A DNA stretch of 41,359 nt from Sphingomonas sp. (GCA_019508115.1 JAEKMC010000075.1:1-41359); one strand, 5' to 3'; shown: positions 24,028 to 31,808, counted from the stretch's first letter. Numbers and translations are program-made. The notes: generated by a model from the sequence alone, not told the origin.

Positions 24028-24660
24028 TCAGGTGAAATGGAAGTGGGCCGAAACCCTGTTCCGTCGGCGGAGCGCTCCGCCGATTACGCCGAAGCCCAGC
24101 GTCGTGACCGCCCAGGAAACCGGCTCAGGTACCGCGCCGACATGCCCGTCTTTGCCGATATTGACCGTGATGGTCTGATTGGCGGGGGAGGTATAGACAT
24201 ATTGCCCCGCCTTCAGGCCAAGCGAGGCGAACGTCACATTGGGAAAGGTTGCACTGCCGGTCAGGGTCCTGCCCCAAATGTAGCCCTTCGGTATGTAGAT
24301 TCGCGGAATTCCATACCCGTCGGTGTCGAGGACGAAGAAGTCGCCGACGACGGAAATAGCGGAAGCGGGAAAGCCGCCGCCTGGTCCCCAGTTGGCTGGG
24401 CCCGAGAGGCCCGAAAAGCCCAGATTGTCCCAGGGCTTGCCAATACGGAAGGTCGTGGCAGACAGCCTGTCGGCGTCGAGATTGATATCGCCGCCTACGA
24501 AAAGAAGGCCAGTCCAGTTGGCGAGAGAGCCGCTATAGCTTGCGAGGATGTCGCCGCCGGCCTCTTCGATATTCACCACAATCGCCGCATGACCCGTTGC
24601 CGCGAGGGTCGCCGCCAGTAGGCCGGCGGCGGCAAATTTCCCGAAATGCCTCATCTTCAT
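24028..24660 (-). CDS. PEP-CTERM (PEPxxWA-type) exported protein
   Basis: Signal peptide MKMRHFGKFAAAGLLAATLAATGHA; C-terminal VPEPVSWAVTTLGFGVIGGALRRRNR sorting motif. The ORF extends to 24897; the likely start is at 24660. Confidence 0.87.
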   Translation of the reverse strand: MKMRHFGKFAAAGLLAATLAATGHAAIVVNIEEAGGDILASYSGSLANWTGLLFVGGDINLDADRLSATTFRIGKPWDNLGFSGLSGPANWGPGGGFPASAISVVGDFFVLDTDGYGIPRIYIPKGYIWGRTLTGSATFPNVTFASLGLKAGQYVYTSPANQTITVNIGKDGHVGAVPEPVSWAVTTLGFGVIGGALRRRNRVSAHFHFT

Positions 24661-24740: not shown

Positions 24741-24787
24741 GATGGGGAACCGATAAAACCCTGACGGAAGCCTGATGAATTACCGAT
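24741..24787. promoter_or_regulatory. Array A: five GAT/GAC half-sites at exact 11-bp spacing, upstream of the PEP-CTERM gene
   Basis: GATGGGGAACC-GATAAAACCCT-GACGGAAGCCT-GATGAATTACC-GAT at 24741, 24752, 24763, 24774, 24785. Confidence 0.72.
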
Positions 24788-24888
24788 GCCAGTTGAATCT
24801 GCTCAAGCGATACGCTTGGTGCGTCGCGGTAGATGCGGTGGAAAGCGCCCAGGAACCTGATAGCGATTAGAAGCGCGGAGAGATTCGC

Positions 24889-25134
24889 ATGGCCCAACGA
24901 CTCGCAACAGTCGCAGGCATCATCGGCTTCCTGATCTGCTTAGCTACAGCATTTGTCCTGGCCCCTGGCGACATCGTGAGCGGAACGGCCACATTTGAGC
25001 GCAGGCCTGCCACGGTCGTAATCATCCTCTATATTACGGTGACATGTGCATGCGTCGTCGTAACACCAACGAGCGCCATGAGATTGACTCCGGGGGGCGT
25101 TGCGCGACAGGATGAGAACCCGATGAAGTGCTGA
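24889..25134 (+). CDS. Small putative membrane protein (81 aa, two TM)
   Basis: MAQRLATVAGIIGFLICLATAFVLAPGDIV...ATVVIILYITVTCACVVVTP; lies just upstream of the regulator gene. Confidence 0.6.
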   Translation: MAQRLATVAGIIGFLICLATAFVLAPGDIVSGTATFERRPATVVIILYITVTCACVVVTPTSAMRLTPGGVARQDENPMKC

Positions 25135-25154
25135 TCATCGGCTGACCGGGGAGG
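25111..25154. promoter_or_regulatory. Array C: four GAT/GAC half-sites at exact 11-bp spacing, immediately upstream of the CadC-like regulator
   Basis: GATGAGAACCC-GATGAAGTGCT-GATCATCGGCT-GACCGGGGAGG at 25111, 25122, 25133, 25144. Confidence 0.62.
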
Positions 25155-25161
25155 ACCGGCG

Positions 25162-26730
25162 TTGAACTACACGACGCGGATCGACCTCGGGACAGAGCAG
25201 GACTTCCAGCTCGGCGAATTGACCATTCGGCCGTCCCTGCGGCAGGCGGCCGATGGAGCCGGCCGGTCCGAGGTCGTGGAACCCCGGGTCATGCAAGTCC
25301 TGGTCGCGCTCGCGCGAGCGGATGGTGAGATCCTGACGCGTGAAGCCCTGACAATCCTGTGCTGGGAGGGCCGGATCGTCGGCGAGGACGCGATCAACCG
25401 GGTCATGTCCCGCTTGCGCCGGTTGTCGGACGGGGTCGGCGCCGGCAGCTTTCGTATCGAGACGATTACGAAGGTCGGGTATCGTTTGGTCGAATGTGGC
25501 TCGGCCGCTGCGGAGCCACCGCAGACGACGCCCGCCGAGCCAAAGCGGATGGCAACTTCTCTCTCGCCCACGAGAAGACTGGTGCTTGGCGCGGGGCTGC
25601 TGGCCTCGTTTGGAACCATCGGAACCTATGCCGTTCTGTGGGGCCGGAGCAAAAGGCACGCGCCGTCGCCCGAAGCCGCACGGATGATGGATCTGGGCCA
25701 GCAGGCCTTGTGCAAGTGCAATGACGAAGGCGTATCCGAGGCACTTGGGTTTTTCAGGCGAGCGGTCGAGCTGGACCCTGACGCCCCGGATGCGTGGGGG
25801 CTGCTCGGCATAGGTTATGCTTATGCTTTGCGGGAAACGGTGATCGACACTGTCGAAGCGCTGACATTGCGCACGAAGTCCACGGTCGCTCGCGCTTTCG
25901 CGCTGGAGCCGGACAACCCCTTCGCACAGGAGGCCATCTACACCTTGATCCCGCTTCTGGGGCGTTGGAAGGAAGCCGACAGCAGCTACCGCGCCGCTTT
26001 GGGCCGGCATCCGGATTCGGCTTATCTGGTTTTCGGCTATGGACGGCGTCTGGCCTCGACGGGCCGCATGCGCGAGTCGGTGAACCAGCTCGATCGAGCA
26101 ATGCGCTTCTTTTCTCCCTCCCCTGGCCTTATGGTCAATCACCTCTGGTCGGTCTGGGCCAGCGGCGCGATCGACGAGGTCGATCGAGCCATCGAGCGCG
26201 CTTTCGCCTTGTTCCCGCTTCACGCATGGATCTGGTTCGCGCGTTTTTATATGCTGATGTTCAGCGGCCGCGCGCACGAGGCGCTCGCCATGGGCGAAAA
26301 CGTCGGGGGCCGCCCGCCCGACATCATGCCGGCAGGTTTTGAGTTACCGATGGCCTCGGCGCGTGCGTTGAATACACATGCCCCTGAAGACATCGAACGT
26401 GCGATGCGGATGCATCTGGAATCAGCGCGGCAAGGCTCCGGCCGGGCGGAAAACGCGATGAATTTCGCCTCCGCGATCGGCCGGCTCGATCAGGCGTTCG
26501 AGATCGCCGGGGCCTATTTCTTCAACCGCGGCTACGCGATTCCGGATTCGCGGTTCGGCGATCCTCAGCGCGTCGCGACCAGCTTAAGCGAACGGAGGAC
26601 GCTTCTCCTGTTCCTGCCGCCTGCGGAAGCAATGCGGCGCGACCCGCGGTTTCCGGCTCTGGTCGGAGAGTTGGGGCTAACCCAGTTCTGGCGCGAGAGC
26701 GGAGTCCCGCCCGATTATCAGCGGGTTTGA
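25162..26730 (+). CDS. CadC/ToxR-like membrane regulator: winged helix + TM + periplasmic TPR-like domain
   Basis: FQLGELTIRPSLRQ...VEPRVMQVLVALARADGEILTREALTILCWEGRIVGEDAINRVMSRLRRLSD...IETITKVGYRLVE (Trans_reg_C); TM RLVLGAGLLASFGTIGTYAVLWG; TPR-like ALGFFRRAVELDPDAPDAWGLLGIGYAYAL. TTG start. Confidence 0.88.
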   Translation: MNYTTRIDLGTEQDFQLGELTIRPSLRQAADGAGRSEVVEPRVMQVLVALARADGEILTREALTILCWEGRIVGEDAINRVMSRLRRLSDGVGAGSFRIETITKVGYRLVECGSAAAEPPQTTPAEPKRMATSLSPTRRLVLGAGLLASFGTIGTYAVLWGRSKRHAPSPEAARMMDLGQQALCKCNDEGVSEALGFFRRAVELDPDAPDAWGLLGIGYAYALRETVIDTVEALTLRTKSTVARAFALEPDNPFAQEAIYTLIPLLGRWKEADSSYRAALGRHPDSAYLVFGYGRRLASTGRMRESVNQLDRAMRFFSPSPGLMVNHLWSVWASGAIDEVDRAIERAFALFPLHAWIWFARFYMLMFSGRAHEALAMGENVGGRPPDIMPAGFELPMASARALNTHAPEDIERAMRMHLESARQGSGRAENAMNFASAIGRLDQAFEIAGAYFFNRGYAIPDSRFGDPQRVATSLSERRTLLLFLPPAEAMRRDPRFPALVGELGLTQFWRESGVPPDYQRV

Positions 26731-26854
26731 CACCGGATTGCGGGGGCGCGCCATCGCGCTCAAGACCGGCCTGCGCGACACGCTGATACCGAGGGCATGG
26801 CCACCGCTTGCGGACGGGCGGAATGGATTATCGGTTGGTTCAACCGTCCGTTCA

Positions 26855-28723
26855 CTAGTGGGAGACGGCTGGGCCTAACACTGTCGATCGCTCCTCAAGA
26901 GGGCTGGGCATTGAAACCCAGGGTTGCCAGGTCGGAGCGGCCCAACGTCCGGAAACTCGGTGCGGTAGGGCATCGGACAGGCGCCTATACATCTTCCCGG
27001 CGCCGGCGTTGGCGCCGAAAGGATTGCCGTTGCCGGCTCCCACCCCGATCAGCACCAACATGCCATTGGCGCCGCCTTCCTTGGTGAGTAGGACATCGCG
27101 CATCTTGCCGGGAATCTCGACCCAGGGCGTGTGAAGCCAATCCTGTATTGAATAGAGAATCCGGTTGTCGCGCGTCAGGCAGACAATATGGAGAAGTGAA
27201 CTCCTGTCCACCGACGCCGTGACCTTCACCACCGAAGCGGGCGTCACGATAAGCGTCCAGGGGGACCAGTTGCCTGGTTTGCTCGGATCGGTCGCGTTCT
27301 TCACGAGCTGATAGCGGTGCCACAGCGCCCCGGCGCCATTGACGCCGAACAAATGAATGTAGTCGCCCTTCGTCACTGCTGCGATTTGCGTCAGAATTCC
27401 GTCCATCGGCGCAAAATTGGTCCAGCCATCGGTTGCGGGCCTTGGGTGCTGTTGCTGAACTGCAGGCAATCGATCGCCGCCGAAGATTTGGTTGGTTGTA
27501 TAGATCTCCCCAGAGGGGGCGGTGCCGAACAGTTGCAAAGTACCGTCGCTGTTGCGCGCGACCGCGATCGTGTTCAGCAACCCTTCCTTCTCAGAGATCG
27601 GTGCCCAGCTGTCATTGCCTGCGATCCTTTGCCAACGATGATAGATTCGGCCGCTGCGTCCCAGACCGAAAAGCTCCACGCGCCCGTCAAAGTTCGCCGC
27701 CGCGGCCAGCGACACGAACGAGTTGCTGGTCAGCTGCCAGTTTGAAAGCGTCGGGTTGGCGGGATCGCCAGGCGTGAGTGCTGCCCGCCAGACGTTCCCT
27801 CGGCCATTCCCGGCGAATAGGTCCAATGGGGTTCCAACGTCGTCGAACGAAGATGCCGCGGCGAGCGGCGACCCAAGCGACAAAACCGAGGGTTCGAAGC
27901 TTTCGACCACGAACCTCGCGACCTCCCAACTCGTGCCGCGCATTGCCTCGGTTCGTGCGATCGAAAAATTGACTTTGGGATAATATGCAGTGTGGCCGCG
28001 CCAGTAGAGGACTTCATCGTCCGGCCTGGCTTGGCCGGTAAGTTGCCAATAGAGAAATGCTCGTCCAGATCCCGGCGGCAGATGAAACACGCCGCCAAAA
28101 TGGCCCTCGTCGATTTGCGCGGGCTTTTTGACGGTGAAGTTATAGCAGGCGCCATGGCCTTTAACCGAACCGGTGTAGCGGGGCAGGCTGGAAGGATCGT
28201 CGAGCGACACCGCGCAGAACGGTTTCAGCCGATCAAGCAGGGTTTTGTTCGTCGCCAGGATATGGCCCAACGTGGCAGCGGCCGCCGTGGGGAGGTCGGC
28301 CGAGCGATTTGCGGCAAGCGCGATTGGCGCCATTGCGTTGACGGCAATGCCCATTTTGTTGACCGCATTGAGGTCAGTGGCGGTAGCGATCTGCTGTTCC
28401 GCGTCAGTCACGCATTTCGCGCTATCGATCGCCAGCCGCTGGCGATTGTCCGGCGTTAGGCTATCGAACTCTCCGAACGTATCGATTGTGCTGACCGCGC
28501 AGGACGCAATTTCACCAGCAGCGACATTGTCGATCTCGGAGATGATCTGTGCCTTCGACAGCAGCACGAGCGCCTTAAGCTGTGAGATTTCGCTCGGCTG
28601 CGGATCGATCCTCTCGTTATAAAGGTCATAGGCTTTCTTGAGATAGTCGACGAAGTCGCCGAACTGCGCCTGCGCCGGGCTCACAGCGAGACATGCGACT
28701 AGGAACACCGCGCAGGTTCGCAT
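26855..28723 (-). CDS. Secreted protein with PLL/tectonin-like beta-propeller repeats (putative carbohydrate binding)
   Basis: Signal peptide MRTCAVFLVACLAVSPAQAQ; repeats of the type VAxNxDGxLxLFGxxxxGxIYHRWQ...W (NFDGRVELFGLGRSGRIYHRWQRI; NSDGTLQLFGTAPSGEIYTTNQ; DYIHLFGVNGAGALWHRYQ). The ORF extends to 28831 with ATGA overlap to the upstream gene. Confidence 0.72.
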   Translation of the reverse strand: MRTCAVFLVACLAVSPAQAQFGDFVDYLKKAYDLYNERIDPQPSEISQLKALVLLSKAQIISEIDNVAAGEIASCAVSTIDTFGEFDSLTPDNRQRLAIDSAKCVTDAEQQIATATDLNAVNKMGIAVNAMAPIALAANRSADLPTAAAATLGHILATNKTLLDRLKPFCAVSLDDPSSLPRYTGSVKGHGACYNFTVKKPAQIDEGHFGGVFHLPPGSGRAFLYWQLTGQARPDDEVLYWRGHTAYYPKVNFSIARTEAMRGTSWEVARFVVESFEPSVLSLGSPLAAASSFDDVGTPLDLFAGNGRGNVWRAALTPGDPANPTLSNWQLTSNSFVSLAAAANFDGRVELFGLGRSGRIYHRWQRIAGNDSWAPISEKEGLLNTIAVARNSDGTLQLFGTAPSGEIYTTNQIFGGDRLPAVQQQHPRPATDGWTNFAPMDGILTQIAAVTKGDYIHLFGVNGAGALWHRYQLVKNATDPSKPGNWSPWTLIVTPASVVKVTASVDRSSLLHIVCLTRDNRILYSIQDWLHTPWVEIPGKMRDVLLTKEGGANGMLVLIGVGAGNGNPFGANAGAGKMYRRLSDALPHRVSGRWAAPTWQPWVSMPSPLEERSTVLGPAVSH

Positions 28724-28827
28724 CAGGCGCGGGAACGATAGGGAGGACGCGGACTGTTGAAGGAAGGACTTGGTGCGGAACAGGAAATGAGTGCGGTGAT
28801 TTACCCGCCGCAGATTGCCGATCTCTG

Positions 28828-31686
28828 TCATCGGCCGCGACCCGAAACGGAACTCGCAAAGGCGAGCAGCCCGGAAAAATTCTCCTCGAGATCCTCAACT
28901 GTGGTGGGCTTGCGAAGCGGTGGCGGCATGGCCGCCGTATCGCCGCTGACATGTGCCGCCGGCCAATGCGCAATCTCCTCCATGGCCCGGCGAAGCTGAT
29001 TGAATTCCGAATATGGTCGGGCGACGTCGAGCGTCAGCAGTTCGCCGACATCTTTCGCCGCCGCACATCGAGCACCCATGAACGGCGCTTTCGGGCCGCA
29101 GAACCGGCGCAAGATCGTCGCCGCGATCGAAGTGTGATCGAAAACCGTATGTGAGACATTGATATTACCGTTCGCATCCGCGCCGGGGATCAATGGCGAG
29201 ATGATGAACGCCGGCACCCGCACGCCGAGCCGCGGCTCTCCGACTGACAGCGGAGGTATTGGCACTTGCGTGACCGAGCCGTCGGGATTGTGGGTCTCGA
29301 CATGCGTCGGAGGCTGGACATGGTCATAGAAGCCGCCGTGTTCATCATAGGTGATGATGAACAGCGTTTTCGCCCACCGGTCCTGGTTGTTTTCCGCGAG
29401 GAGCGCTTTCATGATCTCTGCGACCAGCCGCTGTCCGTTGGCCATATCCGACGGCGCGTGATCGTCGTTGTTGATGCCCCCGGGAGCCTCAATATAATCC
29501 GGCTCGATAAATGTGACCGGCGGCAGACCTGCCTCGACTGCTGCTTCGAAACCGCCGCGGAAGCTCTCGATGTTTTGCTCGTCGAACGTATAGTTTCTCA
29601 CTAACCGAAGCGTACTGTAGCCGTGTTCGAACAGCTTCCACGGCACGCCCGCGGCGGTCAGATGGTCGAAGAAAGTCGGCATCTCGAGCGGAAAGAAGCC
29701 CTTCAGTTCGGGATTCTCGACGTCCGGCGCACCGTAGATATCGCGGCTGAAGTCGCCGGTCAGTGAGATAAACCGGTTCGGCAGGGTGCCGCCGAGATGC
29801 GAGCAATGCCAACGATCGCAGATCGCAAACTCGCGAGTAAGCTCGCCATAAGCCGGCAGCTCGGCATCGGTCAGATAGTCCATGACCAACTGCAGCGGAT
29901 GCTTCCCCGTGGGGTCGACAGGCTCGTTGGGGCCGGGTTGATAAGTCGAAGGTATGTGACGTGCCCATTCCTTGACGAAGTCACCCATTCCGTCGGACAC
30001 CTGCTTCGTGACGCAGGCAGCGCCATGAAAGGGGCCCGGCAGCGCGTAGCTGGGCCAGGCTGTCGTCGTCCGCCGGGTGCTTCGATAATCGACATTGTCA
30101 TACCTGTTTACGTCGCGTGCATTGTCGCCCGGCAAGAGGCCGTCGACCTGGGCCTGAGCGGGCTCGCGATGCTCAGGACCCTCGCCGGTCGCAGGATTTT
30201 CGCGCTGCAGCATGCCGTCGCGAGACAGATACCCAAGGATGTGATCAAATGATCGATTCTCCTGCATCAGCACGACGATATGCTCTATTTTCGAGAGGTT
30301 GCCGGGACTGACGTCGACCGTGCGCTGCGGCTGCACCGGCGGCAATGGCATCTCGTCGGGCGTATTAAACAGCCGTGGCCGGGGCTCGCCGCCACCGCCG
30401 GTACTCGTGCCGTCGCCAGTGTTCGTCCCGCCGGTGGTCGGGCCGACCGGGCCATGGTGGCTGGTAGGCCCGGCCTCTGCCGCCGGCGGTACCTGCCTGC
30501 CGACGTAGGATACGAGAACATCTTCCTGTTCTGGATCCCAGCCAAGTCGATAGAGATCGTAATGCCCGACGATATAGGGGCGAACATAATCGTTGACCAT
30601 GTTGCCGCCAGTATCGGAGAATTGAGCGGTCCAAATAGCGTGCTCGATCGCGCGCTTGATCTCGTCCTTGATGTTGATGGTCTCGGATCCCGGCAGCAGC
30701 GGATCGACGTCGTAGTTCAACATGTCGAGCAATGGCGAGCTGACCACCGGCTCATAAGCGAGACCGGGACTGTTGCGGTCGCCGCTCGCCCCAATGAACA
30801 ATTTCACTTCGAACCACATGTGCTCCGGGTCCGGCAGATCGAATGTTATATTTGGACCTGGATTCTCGATCTCCACCTCACGCGAGCCTTCGTACGCGCA
30901 TCTGATCATAAGCTTCAGATAAGGTGTGTCGGGCGTTTGCCACGGTGCGACCGGGGGCGGTGCATAGGGAAACGGCTCACCACCCACAGACACGCTGATC
31001 GACTTCATGTGGATTTTGGGAAGCGTGTAATAGTCTGAATAGGGAAGCTCTATATATTGGTCTCCCTGAGGTTTTCGATAGATTTCGGCGTAACGCTCGA
31101 ACCAACGGTAGGCGATCCGATCGCTCGCGATGCTAATGTAATCCAGGTAAGGGTTGGCGTTCCAATTGGCATCAAAGCCGCGCGCGAAGAAAGACGCGGG
31201 GATCCGCCGCGTCTCGACCGGCAGGATACTTGGATAGTTCACGTGAACCCGGTAGCGTCGGCTACCCACCGAGCCATCAGCCCGCCGTGTAATCTGCAGC
31301 ATCCACTTGTCGCTGGCGGCGAAGCCGGCCGCGTCGAACGAGAGCTGGCCGGGTCCCTTCGTGGCCGGAGGTTCCTGTGCACCGCAGAGGAGCTTCATTT
31401 CGAGTTCCAGCGCAGGGCCGGTTCCGCCGCCTCCACCGCCATCTAAGCCCAAATTGAAATCGCCTGCTGCGGGACCGAAGGGCGGACGAGCGCGAGCAAT
31501 CCCGCCGCCAGCTCCCGCTGAGCCGCTGCTTCCGCTCGGATCAACGGTTGACCCCAAATCGGCATGATTCACCAACACATTGATAAAGCCAGGGGTGAAG
31601 GGTGGCAGCAACCAGACCTTTCGTTCGCCCGGCTCGAGTTCGATGAAGGTTTCGCGAATTCGGGTGGCGAATTCTATCCCGCTCAT
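28828..31686 (-). CDS. Phospholipase C/acid phosphatase-like phosphoesterase with large unassigned N-terminal domain
   Basis: C-terminal half: IEHIVVLMQENRSFDHILGYLS, FAICDRWHCSHLGGTLPNRFISLTGD, LFIITYDEHGGFYDHVQPPT, PAFIISPLIPGA (phosphoesterase PF04185-type motifs). About 430 N-terminal residues plus a Gly/Thr-rich linker have no family I recognise. Confidence 0.88.
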   Translation of the reverse strand: MSGIEFATRIRETFIELEPGERKVWLLPPFTPGFINVLVNHADLGSTVDPSGSSGSAGAGGGIARARPPFGPAAGDFNLGLDGGGGGGTGPALELEMKLLCGAQEPPATKGPGQLSFDAAGFAASDKWMLQITRRADGSVGSRRYRVHVNYPSILPVETRRIPASFFARGFDANWNANPYLDYISIASDRIAYRWFERYAEIYRKPQGDQYIELPYSDYYTLPKIHMKSISVSVGGEPFPYAPPPVAPWQTPDTPYLKLMIRCAYEGSREVEIENPGPNITFDLPDPEHMWFEVKLFIGASGDRNSPGLAYEPVVSSPLLDMLNYDVDPLLPGSETINIKDEIKRAIEHAIWTAQFSDTGGNMVNDYVRPYIVGHYDLYRLGWDPEQEDVLVSYVGRQVPPAAEAGPTSHHGPVGPTTGGTNTGDGTSTGGGGEPRPRLFNTPDEMPLPPVQPQRTVDVSPGNLSKIEHIVVLMQENRSFDHILGYLSRDGMLQRENPATGEGPEHREPAQAQVDGLLPGDNARDVNRYDNVDYRSTRRTTTAWPSYALPGPFHGAACVTKQVSDGMGDFVKEWARHIPSTYQPGPNEPVDPTGKHPLQLVMDYLTDAELPAYGELTREFAICDRWHCSHLGGTLPNRFISLTGDFSRDIYGAPDVENPELKGFFPLEMPTFFDHLTAAGVPWKLFEHGYSTLRLVRNYTFDEQNIESFRGGFEAAVEAGLPPVTFIEPDYIEAPGGINNDDHAPSDMANGQRLVAEIMKALLAENNQDRWAKTLFIITYDEHGGFYDHVQPPTHVETHNPDGSVTQVPIPPLSVGEPRLGVRVPAFIISPLIPGADANGNINVSHTVFDHTSIAATILRRFCGPKAPFMGARCAAAKDVGELLTLDVARPYSEFNQLRRAMEEIAHWPAAHVSGDTAAMPPPLRKPTTVEDLEENFSGLLAFASSVSGRGR

Positions 31687-31761
31687 TGATCGCTCCTGCT
31701 GGTTCCGCACGGGTGCGCGTCGACCTCATATGAAATGCCTCGGCGCGCGGCGGTGCAGGAG

Positions 31762-31808
31762 GATGAGGAACCGATAAAGTCCTGATGAAAGTATGATCAA
31801 ATGCCGAT
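31762..31808. promoter_or_regulatory. Array B: five GAT half-sites at exact 11-bp spacing, upstream of the phosphoesterase gene
   Basis: GATGAGGAACC-GATAAAGTCCT-GATGAAAGTAT-GATCAAATGCC-GAT at 31762, 31773, 31784, 31795, 31806; 76 bp from the start codon at 31686. Confidence 0.72.

Follow-up and report, generated by a model that had tools for sequence, protein, structure and literature searches.

The regulators PhoB, KdpE and M. tuberculosis PhoP bind through winged helices to direct repeats that recur about every 11 bp. The KdpE repeat consists of 6 bp followed by a 5-bp spacer, giving a period of 11 bp (PMC3264566), and that of M. tuberculosis PhoP of 7 + 4 bp, with the same period (PMC4832192). 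Direct-repeat operators are also used by the CadC/ToxR-like transmembrane one-component activators, which join an N-terminal OmpR-type winged helix lacking a receiver domain to a hydrophobic segment and a C-terminal sensor; the ToxR box reads TNAAA-N5-TNAAA (PMC8517210). In Caulobacter, UzcR recognizes a partly palindromic site, CATTAC-N6-TTAA, and its targets are mostly exported or membrane proteins (PMC8963506). Here we describe a stretch of 41,359 nucleotides from Sphingomonas sp. (GCA_019508115.1, JAEKMC010000075.1:1-41359; the whole stretch is called the window below) that carries three tandem arrays of GAT half-sites, named A, B and C, and a gene starting at 25162 for a putative ToxR/CadC-like regulator.

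This regulator resembles CadC and ToxR in the order of winged helix, hydrophobic segment (here a weak one) and sensor, and in its predicted direct-repeat operators. It differs from them in having a TPR sensor, an anchor resembling a twin-arginine signal, a divergent partner gene for an exported protein, and four or five half-sites with a GAT core at exactly 11 bp, whereas the tox-box is an AT-rich pair of repeats. The 11-bp direct repeats recall PhoB, KdpE and PhoP; in contrast to these, the window protein lacks both a receiver domain and a phosphorelay, the core is GAT, and the genomic sites are confined to regulator loci. The UzcRS-urcA system of Caulobacter is alike in its targets, since UrcA-family exported proteins are the commonest array targets in our analysis (27/45) and UzcR mostly controls exported or membrane proteins. 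However, UzcR is the response regulator of a two-component system and its site is in part palindromic, whereas the present protein is of the one-component type and its predicted sites are tandem GAT arrays. The arrays and the regulator are the following:

24741..24787, plus strand: array A, five half-sites (GAT GAT GAC GAT GAT) with an exact 11-bp period
25111..25154, plus strand: array C, four half-sites (GAT GAT GAT GAC) with an exact 11-bp period
31762..31808, plus strand: array B, five GAT half-sites with an exact 11-bp period
25162..26730, plus strand: regulator of 522 aa with an N-terminal winged helix (Trans_reg_C), a twin-arginine hydrophobic segment and a C-terminal TPR domain

Judged from sequence, A, B and C are probably operators of the 25162 regulator (rough probability 0.8), a ToxR/CadC-like one-component protein that would occupy them in tandem, activate at A and B, repress at C and carry a periplasmic TPR sensor. 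The initial annotation had reported three exact 11-bp tandem arrays, and their sequences and coordinates were confirmed. A composite consensus allowing up to three mismatches found A, B and C only, both in the window and in the whole source assembly (3.27 Mb, 258 contigs, 72% complete), and shuffles gave no match. We also scanned the window with a half-site position weight matrix (PWM) trained without any sequence of this genome; its three best sites were B (36.2 bits), C (30.7 bits) and A (about 30 bits), while the top scores of 300 simulated windows had a median of 10.4 and a maximum of 24.7 bits. The half-site code across the aligned family arrays is about GC-C/T-GAT-G-A.

Over the whole genome, a sequence-only covariance model (R1) built from 19 arrays of other genomes returned five sites at E<1e-3, namely C, an array on contig C138, A, an array on contig C247, and B, the next site having E=0.2. 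Thus, strong sites are not spread at random through the genome; all five lie at three loci that encode a winged helix-turn-helix (wHTH) protein with TPR. The two additional loci hold full-length paralogues of the regulator, on contigs C138 and C247 (identity 41-43% and 34-36%), whose recognition helix is nearly the same as that of the window regulator. The C138 array reads GATCGGAACCT GATTATTGGCC GATCACTTGCC GTCGAAAGGCT GATC, and the C247 array reads GATGCTGCGCC GACTTTTTGCC GACCTTTTGCC GATATTGAGGA.

The association of array and regulator extends beyond this genome. Relatives of the regulator were found in 49/401 family genomes at E<=1e-40, and 78 named regulator loci were obtained by scanning GTDB genomes. 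The taxa represented are Sphingomonas, Sphingobium, Sphingopyxis, Novosphingobium, Erythrobacter, Phenylobacterium, Caulobacteraceae, Rhizomicrobium, Povalibacter, Steroidobacter and others. For 81 family members, we searched the upstream 260 bp for runs with periods from 6 to 25 in which at least 4/5 half-sites read GAY. At a period of 11 on the regulator strand, 37/81 loci contained such a run, compared with 0-2 loci for each of the other periods and none when the opposite strand was read with the 11-bp period. The real loci contained 223 positions of 14 bits or more, a reversed-sequence control 0. Arrays of at least 20 bits were present in 58/78 loci and lay within 260 bp upstream of the regulator on the same strand in 41/78. 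Many of the Sphingomonas arrays are near copies, and 32 arrays were left after dropping those that differed at fewer than 10/44 bases. Between genomes the sequence of the unit diverges, and the spacing, the strand and the position relative to genes persist. The arrays are kept beside orthologous regulators and their exported-protein neighbours.

Presence of arrays also followed presence of the regulator. In a first set of 90 family genomes, an array at E<1e-3 was found in 6/8 regulator-positive and 2/82 regulator-negative genomes; a second set, whose negatives were picked in handle order without looking, gave 18/41 and 0/39. Pooling both sets yields 24/49 regulator-positive against 2/121 regulator-negative genomes, with a Fisher p of about 1e-13 that overstates independence because the genomes are related, the direction being clear. 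A few of the 19 training arrays of the model come from genomes of these sets.

The orientation of the arrays points to their targets. The target gene lies on the strand opposite to GAT, with its start codon at a median distance of 78 bp. Predicted targets carry signal-peptide-like N-termini, a fraction that is partly by construction as the target caller rewarded this feature; their family membership is not. NCBIfam models run on 45 targets identified 27 UrcA (TIGR04433) and 5 PEPxxWA-CTERM proteins, and the rest include other exported or surface proteins. The predicted targets in the window are the following:

24028..24654, minus strand: PEPxxWA-CTERM protein, 208 aa, with a signal-peptide-like N-terminus; predicted target of A
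28828..31686, minus strand: phosphoesterase-family protein (PF04185; phospholipase C/acid phosphatase-like), 952 aa; predicted target of B
26855..28831, minus strand: tectonin/beta-propeller-lectin-like protein whose gene overlaps that of the phosphoesterase and comes second in the predicted B operon

The ATC side of A faces the PEP-CTERM gene at 86 bp from its ATG at 24654, and B lies 75 bp from the phosphoesterase ATG at 31686; these distances, taken with the best start codons, replace the 81 and 76 bp given before. The A target scored 36.9 bits with NF035944 (cut-off 35) and matched PEP-CTERM models only, with no UrcA match. The phosphoesterase matched only PC-PLC/acid phosphatase models, likewise with no UrcA match. 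Its operon had been described as secreted. The propeller protein has a Sec-like signal if it starts at residue 37 (about 28723); in the phosphoesterase no signal peptide was recognizable, and its secretion is not supported. The geometry also holds for arrays located away from the regulator in genome G070, which precede genes for lipoprotein-like and small exported proteins at 58-78 bp. Since these arrays are far from any regulator copy, some genomes probably have a dispersed regulon. Three of the arrays (L195, L196 and L197) have three repeats and stand 58-63 bp before lipoprotein-like genes.

A CTNTCG motif is conserved in most loci directly outside the first repeat, on the ATC side; CTGTCG occurs beside array C, and the motif is not clear beside A and B. 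It could be a -35-like element or a marker of the array end. On the target side, a search for a fixed -35/-10 promoter gave only this flank and a weak signal about 23-27 bp out, which we do not call a promoter.

Array C is placed differently. It ends 8 bp before the TTG start codon of the regulator and overlaps its GGGGAGGA ribosome-binding site, and no divergent target was found at the usual distance from it. Thus, C cannot simply be a shared target operator. Because it sits at the regulator's own start codon, autoregulation is supported, and we presume that C is the autoregulatory operator of the 25162 regulator, at which binding, judging from this position, likely represses the regulator's own gene.

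The regulator itself has the layout of the ToxR/CadC-like proteins, with an N-terminal OmpR/PhoB-type winged helix, a C-terminal sensor and no receiver. Its Pfam content is restricted to Trans_reg_C (PF00486, E 1.7e-8) and TPR. Residues 14-112 match the CadC equivalog model at E 3e-9, below the model's whole-protein cut-off, and the nearest solved winged helix by sequence is the DNA-binding domain of CadC (5ju7, E 1.7e-16), ToxR being matched at a lower rank. The AlphaFold model shows a confident winged helix at 15-111, a TPR superhelix at about 165-522 and a disordered linker, residues 114-163 having low pLDDT; a fold search with the full model gave only TPR matches among the matches listed. 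Most family members have a hydrophobic segment, but it is weak (KD19 1.64 in the window protein); 47/73 homologues reach at least 1.6. In one relative (L039 9597-9640, genome G003), the regulator frame is apparently shifted by one base near its start, through either a sequencing error or a real frameshift.

The hydrophobic segment is preceded by two arginines:

25573..25635, plus strand: codons of regulator residues 138-158, RR and, after it, a G/A-rich stretch of weak hydrophobicity, together resembling a signal anchor of the twin-arginine translocation (Tat) pathway

Counted in the class of 489-548 residues, R138 is conserved in 98% and R139 in 100% of 49 nonredundant members, and the neighbouring columns vary. 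The linker between winged helix and TPR is otherwise poorly conserved, except that the RR is followed by x-phi-phi and the G/A-rich stretch. R-R-x-phi-phi before a weakly hydrophobic stretch corresponds to the Tat-type pattern, found here in an internal position. Longer family members are mostly without RR, and their hydrophobic segment is stronger. This pattern suggests that the internal RR segment is a Tat-dependent signal anchor of a ToxR/CadC-like regulator. If the anchor is real, a transcription factor would be brought to the membrane via the Tat pathway; to our knowledge, no such case has been described.

We can propose the following mechanism. Cytoplasmic winged helices would bind head-to-tail, one for each 11-bp GAY half-site, so that a row of four or five half-sites could accommodate an equal number of winged helices along a single face of the DNA. 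Regulator bound at A and B, where 75-86 bp separate the ATC side from the start codon, may contact RNA polymerase, and its most likely effect from these arrays would be activation, of the PEP-CTERM gene and of the phosphoesterase-propeller operon. At C, it would most likely act as a repressor of its own gene. The TPR domain would be the sensor, probably put in the periplasm by the internal twin-arginine signal anchor. That the 25162 regulator controls its own gene, the PEP-CTERM gene and also the phosphoesterase-propeller operon had been suggested by the initial annotation, and it is well supported computationally by the five genome sites, the family conservation and the co-occurrence.

Several observations weigh against this explanation. 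No array above 20 bits was found in 20/78 loci, and 25/49 regulator-positive genomes have no match at E<1e-3. Since so many loci and regulator-positive genomes are without a strong array, some family members probably use diverged or other sites. Conversely, two genomes, G002 and G018, have a strong array though they are regulator-negative, G018 containing a partial wHTH relative. Within the window, A and B are identical at 34/44 bases, and A and B share with C only 23/44 and 27/44, respectively. Because the phosphoesterase has no orthologue at E<=1e-60 in 200 family genomes, nor in a contig scan, the case for array B comes down to its motif match and its geometry. Finally, the paralogues could also bind A, B or C, their recognition helix being similar. 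As a separate observation, the strong GAT array of G002 is at L190 3075, and this genome contains no clear regulator of the family.

An alternative reading is that the arrays are family operators which, in the cell, are bound mainly by a paralogue at A and B (or C), as parts of a shared network and not of a private local regulon. Both paralogues are full length, each has its own 11-bp GAY array, and their recognition-helix residues are nearly those of the window regulator. The array sequences argue otherwise, for A and B agree with the Sphingomonas L043 array at 31 and 33/44 bases but with the C138 array at 20 and 21/44 and with the C247 array at 17 and 17/44. Moreover, A and B match each other at 34/44 and the window regulator is the nearest copy, so we consider predominant binding by a paralogue unlikely. 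A response regulator of the OmpR/PhoB type, either PhoB or a UzcR-like regulator of urcA-type genes, is a much poorer candidate, with the wHTH-TPR gene then being merely a member of its regulon. It is true that direct repeats of 11 bp characterize the winged-helix class in general, and that the founding urcA gene of Caulobacter is under UzcR control (PMC8963506). However, the UzcR site (m_5, CATTAC-N6-TTAA; PMC8963506) is not made of GAT repeats and cannot be equated with the GAY-N8-GAY of the arrays. A Pho box, raised earlier as an alternative, finds no support either: the local regulator lacks a receiver domain, and the five strong sites are all at wHTH-TPR loci with none outside, unlike a Pho regulon. 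The arrays are also nearly absent from regulator-negative relatives (2/121), although almost all such bacteria would be expected to have PhoB-type regulators.

The notion that the arrays are not protein sites at all, and reflect chance, coding repeats or mobile-element repeats such as iterons or CRISPR-like units, deserves almost no credence. Short 11-bp GAY runs do occur by chance at a low level, as illustrated by contig C136, which is also matched by the exact 4x GAT pattern, indicating that this pattern is too weak. Nevertheless, the shuffles, the reversed-sequence control, the simulated windows and the genome-wide search exclude chance for the arrays. The unit length is no multiple of three, the units are mostly intergenic, and spacing, strand and gene-relative position persist while the unit sequence diverges. 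These controls, together with the cross-genome association, led us to reject chance, coding repeats, iterons and CRISPR-like arrays.

The operation of A, B and C by the 25162 regulator may be one instance of a wider arrangement. We suggest, tentatively and as a proposal we rate somewhat below even, that the family is an undescribed and widespread ToxR/CadC-like class whose TPR sensor is exported by an internal Tat anchor and which uses a conserved operator of three to five GAY at exactly 11 bp to control its own gene and that of an adjacent exported protein, such as UrcA or PEP-CTERM. Its members would occur in Sphingomonadales and Caulobacterales, with a thinner distribution in Rhizobiales and some gammaproteobacteria. 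The TPR domain may in turn sense the exported product, which would complete a feedback loop spanning the membrane. In the open-licence literature, we found no description of such a regulator-operator family, or of a link between UrcA, a TPR winged-helix regulator and a direct repeat. The GAY array at 11-bp steps would provide an operator code, readable from genomes, that marks the target promoters of a large uncharacterized regulator family. Such a code predicts which regulator acts on the exported proteins of the UrcA and PEP-CTERM types, and with what promoter geometry; for most of these proteins no function is known in such bacteria. We rate its interest as moderate to good because it generalizes over many genomes.

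One additional feature lies between arrays A and C:

24889-25134, plus strand: small open reading frame of 81 aa with two hydrophobic stretches; coding status uncertain

No homologue of this small open reading frame was found in the fetched family loci. Its final codons run inside array C.

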